This document shows positions 31,768 to 37,318 of a stretch of 64,000 bases of DNA, piece after piece. Under the pieces are notes generated by a model. The model was not told where the DNA came from. It made no database searches and was given only the letters and a program-made list of their open reading frames with translations. The DNA lies in the NCBI GenBank assembly GCA_905618945.1, contig CAJQTF010000011.1, positions 62,001 to 126,000 on the forward strand, read 5' to 3'. Origin of the DNA: an uncultured Methylophilaceae bacterium. GTDB taxonomy: Bacteria; Pseudomonadota; Gammaproteobacteria; Burkholderiales; Methylophilaceae. The translations under genes and the position numbers were made by a program. Position 1 is the first letter of the stretch. Each line of letters begins with the position of its first letter.

Positions 31768-32034
31768 ATGGCTAGCTTTATTCAAACTTACTTTAATATT
31801 TACTTTACAGAAATTATTGTAGGGGTACTTGTAATTTCAATTGCAATTGTAATAGTTTCAATATTTTATGTAATATTTAGCCCATCAGAATATGAAGTAA
31901 TTAAGAAATCGATACGAAAAAATACGAAAAATACGAAAAACATAAAGCGAATAAAATATACGAAACAATTTATAAAAGGCGTTGATGGCATTGATTTAGA
32001 TTTAAAAATTAACACTCCGCCAAATAAAAATTAA
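31768..32034 (+). CDS. Small membrane protein of unknown function
   Basis: 88 aa; one strong TM (IIVGVLVISIAIVIVSIFYVIF) then basic tail. Confidence 0.5.
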   Translation: MASFIQTYFNIYFTEIIVGVLVISIAIVIVSIFYVIFSPSEYEVIKKSIRKNTKNTKNIKRIKYTKQFIKGVDGIDLDLKINTPPNKN

Positions 32035-32171: not shown

Positions 32172-32208
32172 TTATCCTGACTTTTATAATTGAACTTGCG
32201 TCTATAGG
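32172..32208 (+). promoter_or_regulatory. Candidate ECF-type promoter upstream of the sigma factor gene
   Basis: TTATCCTGACTTTT ... CGTCTATAGG, 17 nt between TGAC and CGTC; motif recurs at 33525-33562. Confidence 0.6.
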
Positions 32209-32222
32209 ACACAGGAGAGTTT

Positions 32223-32819
32223 ATGGAGTTTGAAAATACCTTAAAGCTTTTACAAAGCAAAGAGCATCTAATGAGAGAGAAAGGTGCTAATGAGCTATAT
32301 AAAATGCTGTATCAACCATTAATGGGATTTTGTAGACAAAGAAGATTGAATAAGTTTGAGGCTGAAGAAGTAATACTTGAAAGCTTGTTTAAGATTTGTA
32401 CAAAAATAGATACTGTTAAGGAGCCAAAAAAATTTAGAGCATGGTGTTGGACTATTGCAAGAAACACTTTGCTAGATCATTTCAGAAAATATAAAAAATA
32501 TGAAAACGAAATAGCTGAAGTTTACATTGATGAATCTGGAAGGGAATCTTCTAGGCTAGATAAGATTGAGGTAGTTACAAGAATGAATAAAGAGACAGAA
32601 AAAAAAGATACAGATCAATGCGTTCATTTAGGATTACAAGAATTTGCTAAAGCAATGCCTGAAAGAGCATTTGTTATTCAAATGAAATTAGAGAATCTAA
32701 CTAATTTAAAAATAAGTGAAAGAATTGGAAGAACGCTCGCCGCAACAAAAGAGTATGTAAGTCAAAGCTATAAACAGTTAGGACCATTTATAAAACACTG
32801 TGTAGAAGGTAGTGAATAA
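32223..32819 (+). CDS. ECF-type RNA polymerase sigma factor
   Basis: 198 aa; region 2-like (EAEEVILESLFKICTKIDTVKEPKKFRAWCWTIARNTLLDHFRK) and region 4-like HTH. Confidence 0.85.
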   Translation: MEFENTLKLLQSKEHLMREKGANELYKMLYQPLMGFCRQRRLNKFEAEEVILESLFKICTKIDTVKEPKKFRAWCWTIARNTLLDHFRKYKKYENEIAEVYIDESGRESSRLDKIEVVTRMNKETEKKDTDQCVHLGLQEFAKAMPERAFVIQMKLENLTNLKISERIGRTLAATKEYVSQSYKQLGPFIKHCVEGSE

Positions 32820-33520
32820 TGTCTAAAAATGAAAAAGATTGGTTTGCAACCCTGGCAGGAGAAAGAGTTGTTGGTATGGATAGCAAGACTAGATTAGAAG
32901 CTAGATTAGTACGTACGATATTAAAAGAAAGAGCTGATGAGATAAATAAAGAGATAAATAAAGAGATAAATAAAGATGATGGCCAACTTCGTAAAGCACT
33001 TATCAGTAAATTAGAAAAAGTAGGTTATTTAAAAAAAGAATCAACAAATTTAGAACAAAAAATTAAAGATAATATTAAATGGCTATTAGCATTATTTATG
33101 GGAGGTAGTTTTTTCGCATATGCTATAAAAGATGGGATTCATATTACAGATATCCAAGAAGTCCCAAGCACACGGATTGAAGTAACGGAAACATTTTGGG
33201 ATATTGTGATGGATGAAACGGGTAATAGATTAACTGCTTTTTGGCCAAAACAAAAAAAACCAATTACATCAAAAAAAATAAAAATTGTTAATGCAGCTGA
33301 TTGTTCTTCAGAACTGTTAACCCTAAATGGATGCCTAAAAGTACAAAACAAGCACCAAGCACAATTTAATATAGGTCTAATTTATGAACAAGGATTAAGC
33401 GGGGTAGAAAAAAATCCAGAGAAGGCTTACGAGTGGTATAAAAAATCGGCTGCTCAAGGTAATCAAAGAGCAAAATTTAATATTGAATATATGATAAGTA
33501 AGAAAATAATAAATAAATAG
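32819..33520 (+). CDS. Putative membrane-anchored anti-sigma factor with C-terminal Sel1 repeat
   Basis: 233 aa; coupled to sigma gene (TAATG); cytoplasmic N-domain, TM WLLALFMGGSFFAYAI, C-terminal Sel1 repeat AQFNIGLIYEQGLSGVEKNPEKAYEWYKKSAAQGNQRAKFN. Confidence 0.7.
   Translation: MSKNEKDWFATLAGERVVGMDSKTRLEARLVRTILKERADEINKEINKEINKDDGQLRKALISKLEKVGYLKKESTNLEQKIKDNIKWLLALFMGGSFFAYAIKDGIHITDIQEVPSTRIEVTETFWDIVMDETGNRLTAFWPKQKKPITSKKIKIVNAADCSSELLTLNGCLKVQNKHQAQFNIGLIYEQGLSGVEKNPEKAYEWYKKSAAQGNQRAKFNIEYMISKKIINK
32939..32974 (+). repeat. 12-bp in-frame tandem repeat (GAGATAAATAAA)x3
   Basis: Direct reading; encodes (EINK)x3 in the putative anti-sigma N-domain. Confidence 0.9.
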
Positions 33521-33524
33521 TTTA

Positions 33525-33562
33525 TTATCCTGACTTTTTTAAAAATGGTTACGTCTTATAGG
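33525..33562 (+). promoter_or_regulatory. Candidate ECF-type promoter upstream of the exported Sel1-repeat gene
   Basis: TTATCCTGACTTTT ... CGTCTTATAGG, same 17-nt spacing as at 32172-32208. Confidence 0.6.
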
Positions 33563-33578
33563 TGTAACCATTTTTTTT
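33541..33578 (+). terminator. Intrinsic terminator after the sigma/anti-sigma pair; loop overlaps candidate -10
   Basis: AAAAATGGTTAC-GTCTTATAGGT-GTAACCATTTTT plus T-run; 12-bp stem, 11-nt loop. Confidence 0.75.
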
Positions 33579-33589
33579 AAGGAATAATA

Positions 33590-34897
33590 ATGCAACTCAA
33601 AAGAATAATATTAGTATTAGCACAGCTTGGACTAGTTTCTGCAATTGGAGTGACTGTAGCCAAACAAACCGATGAACCAATTAAAAAAATTGATGAAATA
33701 AGTAGCCTTAGTGAAGAAAGCTGTACACAAGAAACTTTTTGGACTACTTGGTTTGATAACTCAAATCAATTTAAAGGATTTGGAGTGCCACCTAGCCAGA
33801 AAGAAATTTCAAAAGCGCAGTATAGATTTGCAGAGAATTATCATAATGGCAAAGTATTAACAAAAGATTATCAACGTGCATTAGATTTATTTACGCGTGC
33901 GGCTGACTCAGGGCTGACTCAGGCAAATTTCAAATTAGGCCTAATTAATCATTATGGGCAAGGTAAGGCAAAAGATTTATCAGAGGCATATACATATTAT
34001 GAAAAAGCCGCTGTGCATAATAGCCCTGAGGCTCAATTCAACTTAGGGTTAATGAATCGATATGGACTAGGTCGCAATAAAGATCAATATAAAGCTTACG
34101 AATGGTTTTCAAAATCAGCAAAAGATCAAACAACTTTAGATATCAATCAATGCCAAATTAAAGCTGCTGGAGTTACTGAGGCACAATTTAACCTAGCTCA
34201 AATGCATCACTATGGGATTGGAACGATTAAAGATATGACTTTAGCTGCCAAATGGTATGAAAAATCAGCGGCAAATAATATGAAAGAAGCACAATTTAAC
34301 TTAGCAAAATTATTGCTATCTGGAGAGGGGATTAACTATGATTTTGATCGAGCCATGGAAAATTATAAGCTTGCAGCAGAACAGGGGCTTGCTGAAGCAC
34401 AACTTAACTTGGCTCAAATGTATCACTATGGACCAAGCCACATCCAAAATTATTTTGAAGCGTATGCGTGGTATAAAAAATCAGCTAAACAAGGAATGCA
34501 TGAAGCAGAGTTTAATTTAGGTTTAATGGCACACTATGGCCGAGGCACAAATAAAGATTATGTTGAAGCTATGAATCACTATCTTAAAGCATCTACTAAT
34601 TCTATCCCAGAAGCAGATTTAAATATTGCATTTTTGCATCACTATGGATTAGGTACATCAATAGATCTTGATAAATCTTTTGAATATTTTACAAAAGCTG
34701 CAAAGCATAACTTTCCACAAGCACAGTATCACTTAGGACTTCTATATAAGAATGGGCAGAGTGTAGAAAAAGATTTAGATCAAGCAAATTATTGGTTTGA
34801 AAAGGCTGCTGTACAAAATTTAGACGAAGCAAAGTTAATGACAGCAGCTTTAGCTCTAAGAGAGCCAAACGACGTTGACCTTTATATAGTTAACTAA
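33590..34897 (+). CDS. Exported Sel1-like (TPR-like) repeat protein
   Basis: 435 aa; N-terminal signal-like segment; multiple repeats of the form A.FNLG.M..YG.G..KD...A..WY.KSA. Confidence 0.9.
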   Translation: MQLKRIILVLAQLGLVSAIGVTVAKQTDEPIKKIDEISSLSEESCTQETFWTTWFDNSNQFKGFGVPPSQKEISKAQYRFAENYHNGKVLTKDYQRALDLFTRAADSGLTQANFKLGLINHYGQGKAKDLSEAYTYYEKAAVHNSPEAQFNLGLMNRYGLGRNKDQYKAYEWFSKSAKDQTTLDINQCQIKAAGVTEAQFNLAQMHHYGIGTIKDMTLAAKWYEKSAANNMKEAQFNLAKLLLSGEGINYDFDRAMENYKLAAEQGLAEAQLNLAQMYHYGPSHIQNYFEAYAWYKKSAKQGMHEAEFNLGLMAHYGRGTNKDYVEAMNHYLKASTNSIPEADLNIAFLHHYGLGTSIDLDKSFEYFTKAAKHNFPQAQYHLGLLYKNGQSVEKDLDQANYWFEKAAVQNLDEAKLMTAALALREPNDVDLYIVN

Positions 34898-35875: not shown

Positions 35876-36499
35876 ATGAATGCTCCCCAAGGTACAGAAG
35901 AATGGCTTAAAAAAAGACTAGGTAAGATTACTGGATCAACTATTCATAAAATAATGTCACTTAAAGAGAATTCATCAACAAGATTAAAATTATTGCAAGA
36001 TTTAACTCTGGAGCGTATATCCGGCTCACCAACAAAAAATATTGTGACAGGGCCTATGGCAAGAGGTTTAGAGCTTGAATCAGAAGCAAGAAATGCTTAC
36101 GAACTAAAAAATCAAAAAGTAATTTTAACTGGATTTATTGATCACCCTACAATAAAAGAAGCTGGAGCAAGTCCTGATGGCTTAGTCGGAGAAGACGGTT
36201 TAATCGAGATTAAATGTCTTAATATAAAAAATCATAATGATATTGTAATGAAACAAACTTTACCCAAGCAATATAATCTTCAAATTCAATTTCAATTGGC
36301 ATGCACAAATAGAGCATGGTGTGATTTTGTAGCTTACCATCCTGAATCCGATCATTCACTGTATGTAAAAAGGGTTTTACCTGAATATGACCTAATAAAA
36401 GAGATTCATGAAAAAGCAATTATTTTTGTAGGCGAAGTAGAAGAAAAATATAGAGCAATGAAGGAAAGAAATTCAGAAGAGGTTTATAAATACTTATAA
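35876..36499 (+). CDS. YqaJ / lambda-exonuclease-like PD-(D/E)XK nuclease
   Basis: 207 aa; GTEEWLKKRLGKITGS, GASPDGLVGEDGLIEIKCLN catalytic core, YNLQIQFQLACT. Confidence 0.9.
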   Translation: MNAPQGTEEWLKKRLGKITGSTIHKIMSLKENSSTRLKLLQDLTLERISGSPTKNIVTGPMARGLELESEARNAYELKNQKVILTGFIDHPTIKEAGASPDGLVGEDGLIEIKCLNIKNHNDIVMKQTLPKQYNLQIQFQLACTNRAWCDFVAYHPESDHSLYVKRVLPEYDLIKEIHEKAIIFVGEVEEKYRAMKERNSEEVYKYL

Positions 36500-36511
36500 A
36501 TAAAATTTTTT

Positions 36512-37318
36512 ATGATCAATTTAAAGAGAAATAGTAAATTAGAATTAGTAGAAGCAAAAGGGATTCGTAGTCGCTCCTCCTCAATATATAGTCCAAATCA
36601 ATTAGAAGATTTTAAGATTAGCCGTGGTAAATTTAATGATTTTTTAACCTGCCAGCGATGTTTTTATTTAGATCGTGTTAAAGGCTTTCAAAGTCCTGGT
36701 ATGCCAGGATGGTCATTAAACGAAACTACAGATATCTTGCTGAAAAAAGAATTTGATATTTGTAGAGCAGAACAAACGCCCCATAGAATATTTATTGAAA
36801 ATGGATTAAACCATCTTGTACCTTTTAAACATCCAGAGATGGATAATTGGAGAAACTCTCTAAGTAAGGGGCTAATGTCTCGCTTTAAAGAGACTAATAT
36901 AATTTTATCTGGCGGCATTGATGATATCTGGCAAGATACTAAGACAAAAGATTTAATCGTTGTTGACTATAAGTCTCAAGCTAGTAATTATGAGGTAAGA
37001 ACAAATTATTATTTAGAATCCCCTTATCATCAAGGCTACAAAATTCAGATGGATTTTTATAATTACTTATTAACTGTTATGGGTTTTCAGGTAGGTTCAC
37101 TATCATATTTCTTAGTCGTAAATGCGGACCGTGGGGCAGAGGGCTTTCATGGGAAGTTAGATTTTAGCGAGACATTAGTGCCGTATTCCCATAATATTAC
37201 TTGGATAACGTCTAAAGTAGATGAAATGATCGAGCTAATAAATCAAAAGACAGTACCAGAATCTAATCCTAGTTGTGAAAACTGTGCATACTCTAGGCAT
37301 AGAGCTAAAGTAGATTAG
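36512..37318 (+). CDS. PD-(D/E)XK nuclease, Cas4/RecB-C-like with four cysteines
   Basis: 268 aa; LTCQRCFYLDRVKG, GGIDDIW...LIVVDYKS, QMDFYNYLL, C-terminal CENCAYSRHR. Confidence 0.8.
   Translation: MINLKRNSKLELVEAKGIRSRSSSIYSPNQLEDFKISRGKFNDFLTCQRCFYLDRVKGFQSPGMPGWSLNETTDILLKKEFDICRAEQTPHRIFIENGLNHLVPFKHPEMDNWRNSLSKGLMSRFKETNIILSGGIDDIWQDTKTKDLIVVDYKSQASNYEVRTNYYLESPYHQGYKIQMDFYNYLLTVMGFQVGSLSYFLVVNADRGAEGFHGKLDFSETLVPYSHNITWITSKVDEMIELINQKTVPESNPSCENCAYSRHRAKVD

Follow-up and report, generated by a model that had tools for sequence, protein, structure and literature searches.

Hairpins that form only in a longer transcript, and that are cut away when transcription starts inside them, are known from bacteriophages. 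In phage T4 the long RNAs of genes e, soc, 49 and I-TevI carry hairpins that mask the ribosome-binding site, late promoters of e and I-TevI yield RNA without the 5' arm, and the long RNA of gene e gives about 100-fold less lysozyme (PMC3014915, PMC2988022). In phage phiX174 an overlapping promoter–terminator element appears, from the part of the published account drawn on here, to decouple neighbouring genes (PMC9135205). Where an operon has an internal promoter, transcripts that read through must be distinguished from those that begin there, and here we describe one short stretch of about 40 bases on a bacterial chromosome that seems to do so without a protein or extra DNA.

The window, by which we mean the whole 64,000-nt stretch of DNA analysed, comes from a streamlined Methylophilaceae genome that, by its size and family, we read as OM43-like and so as one of the small-genome marine bacteria that live on methanol. 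Its genes of interest run in the order pntA/pntB-like genes (which we take, from their sequence, to encode transhydrogenase subunits), a small membrane protein, the promoter P1, an extracytoplasmic function (ECF) sigma factor, an anti-sigma candidate, the promoter P2 and a gene for a Sel1-repeat protein (Table 1). The sigma protein scores 42.1 bits with PF04542 and 47.1 with TIGR02937 (cut-off 42.9), as an ECF sigma factor should, and its closest named match, at 80% identity, lies on contig JAOLWQ010000001.1 ('Methylophilaceae bacterium'). The start of the following gene overlaps the sigma stop codon, and its position, membrane segment and co-conservation make its product a likely anti-sigma factor. 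Its own stop codon (33518-33520) is separated from the Sel1 ATG by 69 nt. In several relatives, most clearly in genomes G019, G026 and G018, the anti-sigma candidate and the Sel1 protein have in common a motif resembling FW..WF...G.F.GF, and this sensor and secreted protein may bind the same thing. The small membrane protein (31768-32034) has a conserved KYTK-F--GV-GIDLDLK-like tail and, in most relatives too, is flanked by pntB on one side and the sigma operon on the other. The Sel1 cluster is followed by an adjacent pair of nuclease-fold genes (YqaJ-like and PDDEXK_1, 35876-37318), the YqaJ-like gene being present likewise in G017 and G002.

Table 1. Features of the sigma operon and the intergenic stretch before the Sel1 gene (positions in the window)
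Feature	Position	Strand	Basis or remark
P1, ECF promoter twin CCTGAC-N17-CGTC of the sigma operon, no hairpin	32176..32202	+	sequence match
ECF sigma factor	32223..32819	+	Sigma70_r2; NCBIfam sigma70-ECF above cut-off
Putative membrane anti-sigma factor	32819..33520	+	one hydrophobic segment; C-terminal part with one Sel1 repeat
P2 -35 CCTGAC	33529..33534	+	8 nt 3' of the anti-sigma stop
Hairpin 5' arm AAAAATGGTTACGTCT, holds the -10	33541..33556	+	fold prediction and covariation
P2 -10 CGTC	33552..33555	+	within the hairpin stem
Loop, 3 nt	33557..33559	+	fold prediction
Hairpin 3' arm AGGTGTAACCATTTTT	33560..33575	+	fold prediction; P2-born RNA would keep only (most of) this arm
T8 tract of the intrinsic terminator	33571..33578	+	sequence; partly within the stem
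Shine-Dalgarno AAGGA of the Sel1 gene	33579..33583	+	sequence
Secreted Sel1-repeat protein, proposed insulated gene	33590..34897	+	signal-like N-terminus; 9 Sel1 repeats

An ECF-type promoter, CCTGAC-N17-CGTC, stands before both the sigma gene (P1) and its presumed Sel1 target (P2), and in relatives its spacing is 15–17. P1 and P2 have CCTGACTTTT-N13-CGTC in common, are its only two mismatch-free copies in the whole assembly (1.0 Mb, about 78% complete) and appear to answer to the same sigma factor. ECF-dependent transcription usually starts about 7 nt 3' of the -10, and by this spacing a P2 transcript is expected to begin near 33561-33566. Further copies of CCTGAC-N17-CGTC without a hairpin are found before another small Sel1-type protein at G000:C26 near 5708 (L137, - strand) and at G017:C2:34927 (L139), and this gene is a likely third member of the regulon. 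In G026 the sigma gene is immediately preceded by a back-to-back pair of ECF motif matches, one on each strand (L064 113-164).

The hairpin over P2 was first described in a sequence-only reading of this stretch, in which the -10 was placed in the 11-nt loop of a 12-bp terminator stem. The letters it gave for the -35, -10, arms, T8 and Sel1 ATG are indeed found at those positions, and the 12-bp stem holds for the core arms, AAAAATGGTTAC (33541-33552) and GTAACCATTTTT (33564-33575), which pair perfectly by Watson–Crick rules. However, four further pairs, two of them wobble, form between GTCT (33553-33556) and AGGT (33560-33563), so that the stem has 16 bp, the loop 3 nt, and the -10 belongs to the upper stem. 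The stem is stable, contains G–C pairs and is directly followed by an uninterrupted T8, as in an intrinsic terminator, and its fold has a z of -4.0, with none of 200 shuffles as good. By a hairpin-plus-T-run score, the formula of which we take to be that of d'Aubenton-Carafa, it ranks fifth among the terminator-like sites of both strands in the 64-kb window, six of which score above zero; a generic terminator scan does not list the site at 33541-33578. RNA born at P2 is predicted to be almost structureless, at about -2 to -3 kcal/mol.

We propose, with a probability of roughly 0.7, that the intergenic stretch is a compact insulator in which the DNA of an ECF promoter doubles as the RNA arm that silences read-through, the Sel1 gene being switched on only via P2. 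A polymerase arriving from upstream would copy the -10 region into the 5' arm, the hairpin and its eight U would form, and transcription would be expected to stop. When sigma is active, polymerase would start from P2, either inside the 3' arm or immediately ahead of it, and the resulting RNA, lacking the 5' arm, would be unable to form the terminator and would leave AAGGA open. Expression of Sel1 would then depend on sigma activity via P2 and not on whatever transcription of the upstream operon is basal or leaky. The promoter, hairpin and T-run, their joint conservation, the covariation and the predicted difference between long and short RNA can be read from the sequences; what we infer is the use of P2, its start position, the termination and a physiological purpose, namely to keep sigma and anti-sigma always at a basal level and to hold back the secreted protein until sigma is free. 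As P1 and P2 appear to answer to the same sigma, insulation would be needed only if the operon has the basal transcription that we assume. It is a speculation, drawn from the motif common to the two proteins, that leaked Sel1 protein might disturb sensing.

The genus set comprised 31 genomes, 24 with a Sel1 match, from which 22 P2 regions were analysed; the sample amounts to some eight independent lineages. The P2 promoter, as [CT]CTGAC-N15-17-C[GA]TC, is found in 21 of the 22 regions, G026 having CCTTAC instead. The terminator form, hairpin plus unbroken T-run, occurs in seven (G000, G017, G028, G009, G002 and the distant pair G014 and G024). Conservation of stem and -10 in relatives, which the sequence-only reading had named as a check, is thus borne out, the hairpin recurring in six relatives with compensatory changes around a fixed -10. 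When the seven are aligned, 92% of pair cells pair, against 36–50% with partners slid by one to three columns, and both sides have changed at three pairs (A–U to G–C, U–A to G–C and A–U to U–A); 2 to 5 of 500 shuffles do as well on these measures. Two of the positions facing the fixed CGTC vary, as G–U/G–C and U–A/U–G, and always still pair, wobble included, and G–U pairs are present in the stems of all seven. Their mean fold energy over P2 is -26.6 kcal/mol against -14.8 (sd 1.0) for shuffles, a difference of 12 sd. Taken together, the co-conserved promoter and stem, the covarying arms, the kept T-run and the nearly structureless predicted P2 RNA support, across the 22 genomes, the earlier suggestion that read-through would stop here while P2-born RNA would escape.

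A covariance model built from the terminator genomes and run over 187 genomes of the family recovered the seven and otherwise only weak matches, of which those in G174 (E 0.008 per genome, 187 genomes) and at G019:C1 (E 0.012) were taken as noise. The model places the element at a single locus in seven genomes, and a mobile or repeated element was rejected on this ground; its antisense matches at the element loci are the inverted repeat read backwards. On the Sel1 protein tree the terminator trait needs two changes, and the covariation comes from few events within two clades whose single origin is neither shown nor rejected (p-AU 0.095 for a single clade). The G015 group varies too little within the element for covariation to register. 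Two of the terminator genomes, G028 (L062 2586-3323, -) and G009 (L141), have a different gene at the sigma position, of 245 and 263 aa, which in G028 gave no match in a Pfam search; their anti-sigma N-terminus also differs, yet they retain the C-terminal part of the anti-sigma protein, the Sel1 gene and the P2 hairpin, as if the sigma half of the module had been exchanged. G029 (L151) has no clear P2, its sigma and anti-sigma genes are frameshifted, through either real decay or assembly errors, and an unrelated short terminator-like hairpin lies 5' of its Sel1 gene.

The other 15 regions have a different structure. Against shuffles that keep the -35, -10 and ribosome site fixed, their P2 stretch folds as a group at a mean of -18.3 against -13.0 (sd 0.6). 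Masking, measured as the mean unpaired probability of the G bases in the ribosome-site zone, is likewise beyond chance, at 0.021 against a null of 0.171 (sd 0.038; lowest of 200 nulls 0.076), and remains so after thinning to eight genomes (0.019 against 0.149). The masking partner lies almost entirely in the part of the RNA that P2-born RNA would lack, and is mainly the -35 region in the G015 group and G004/G027 and the -10 region in G030, G019 and the G018 group. The clade of G018, G022, G016, G021 and G023 has weak excess structure only, with no sense bias, and G026 has no excess P2 structure by fold energy. Among control promoters, structure and masking at P1 (14 sites) equal the null (-13.5 against -13.5; 0.334 against 0.337), and nine other regulon promoters are nearly null (unpaired 0.343 against 0.308; fold -12.2 against -10.9, 1.7 sd), the exceptions that mask their site being P1 of G029 and the leading promoters of G004 and G027. 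These last two genomes carry an extra regulon promoter before a gene of 83–85 aa (L067 1118-1143 +; L068 - strand), its ribosome site masked in the long RNA.

Because the seven fold strongly unmasked and the 15 mask, terminator and ribosome-site masking look like alternative outputs of one arrangement. The comparison across 22 genomes favours the earlier claim of insulation in very little DNA, but the terminator is not its universal means, as 15 relatives seem to rely on concealing the ribosome-binding site. We lean slightly towards a wider reading, in which the promoter elements would be under double selection throughout the genus, as DNA for sigma and as RNA for silencing, lineages having swapped the output between termination and masking, via the -35 or the -10, with promoter and logic kept.

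The excess masking in the 15 genomes could also mean that the structure is mainly translational, a promoter-derived segment masking the Sel1 ribosome site in read-through RNA and the T-run hairpin being a stronger version with little termination, and partial pairing of AAGGA with the -35 region is indeed predicted in several terminator-form genomes. We consider this unlikely, though the best placed of the alternatives, given that ribosome-site masking in the seven terminator genomes does not exceed that of shuffles (0.121 against 0.144), whereas their hairpin is far stronger, with an unbroken T-run after it in every one. Coupling instead of insulation would follow if a ribosome finishing the anti-sigma gene melted the structure and Sel1 were translated from the long RNA; the anti-sigma stop is only 2–12 nt before the -35 where the -35 masks (G015 group, G004 and G027), but the 5' arm in the window begins 21 nt after the stop, the -10 that masks in the G018 clade lies about 35–40 nt after it, and a terminated RNA would be beyond rescue, which makes coupling quite improbable. 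Marginally less probable again is an ordinary terminator and an ordinary promoter overlapping for want of space, without selected interplay. A streamlined genome and so small a gap would invite such an overlap, which by itself would already give the proposed effect; against it, two clades with Sel1 proteins no more than 55–58% identical both retain the overlap, and relatives with a gap of similar size keep structure over P2 without the terminator. Chance overlap is also disfavoured by the conservation across relatives and the shuffle tests.

The strand on which the structure folds also bears on its nature. At P2 the sense RNA folds better than the antisense by a mean of 5 kcal/mol (22 genomes, p 7e-5), the bias at P1 is weaker (about 2 kcal/mol, p 0.03), kinship inflating the independence of the genomes in both tests, and the nine other regulon promoters show no sense-strand folding bias. 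This sense bias points to an RNA structure rather than a DNA palindrome, and the least probable of the readings, that the inverted repeat, centred as it is on the -10, binds a dimeric regulator of P2 as its DNA operator, is further disfavoured by the G–U pairs in all seven stems, by arms that change with pairing kept and by the conserved T-run, even with some sense bias at P1 too. An attenuator or riboswitch was considered, and no alternative antiterminator was noticed in a non-systematic look.

The insulator reading, under which the long RNA would be silenced and the P2-born RNA used, offers a testable compact device and a reason why some promoters look conserved beyond the needs of polymerase; the relatives supply natural variants with two outputs, and the comparison of long and short RNA by fold energy and ribosome-site access is applicable to other internal promoters. 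Compared with an ordinary intrinsic (Rho-independent) terminator, the element has the same A-tract, stem, short loop and T8, but its stem holds the fixed -10 of the next gene, the partner bases of which vary only within pairing rules. As in other autoregulated ECF operons with a membrane anti-sigma factor, the sigma gene stands behind a twin of the target promoter, with a membrane protein next and the target downstream; the anti-sigma candidate differs in carrying a Sel1 repeat and the motif also found in the target protein. The likeness to T4 is that an internal promoter, on the predicted start, lies in the 5' arm of a hairpin that only the longer RNA would contain, and would cut this arm off, the short RNA then being translated. 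T4 uses ribosome-site masking and a phage late sigma, whereas the window has a bacterial ECF operon and an intrinsic terminator; masking beyond chance is found in the 15 other relatives as a group, which T4 resembles, and not in the window or terminator-form genomes, so the window element is not counted as a T4-type member. With phiX174 it has in common a promoter and terminator that overlap between two gene blocks with apparent decoupling, but that element belongs to a phage and not to an ECF operon, and the portion of the account used here describes neither arm covariation with a fixed -10 nor a switch to masking (PMC9135205). The open-licence literature on promoter–terminator overlap yielded little beyond phiX174, and an earlier bacterial report may have been missed; within that literature, phages T4 and phiX174 already show this logic, and a chromosomal ECF operon with two forms of it is new.
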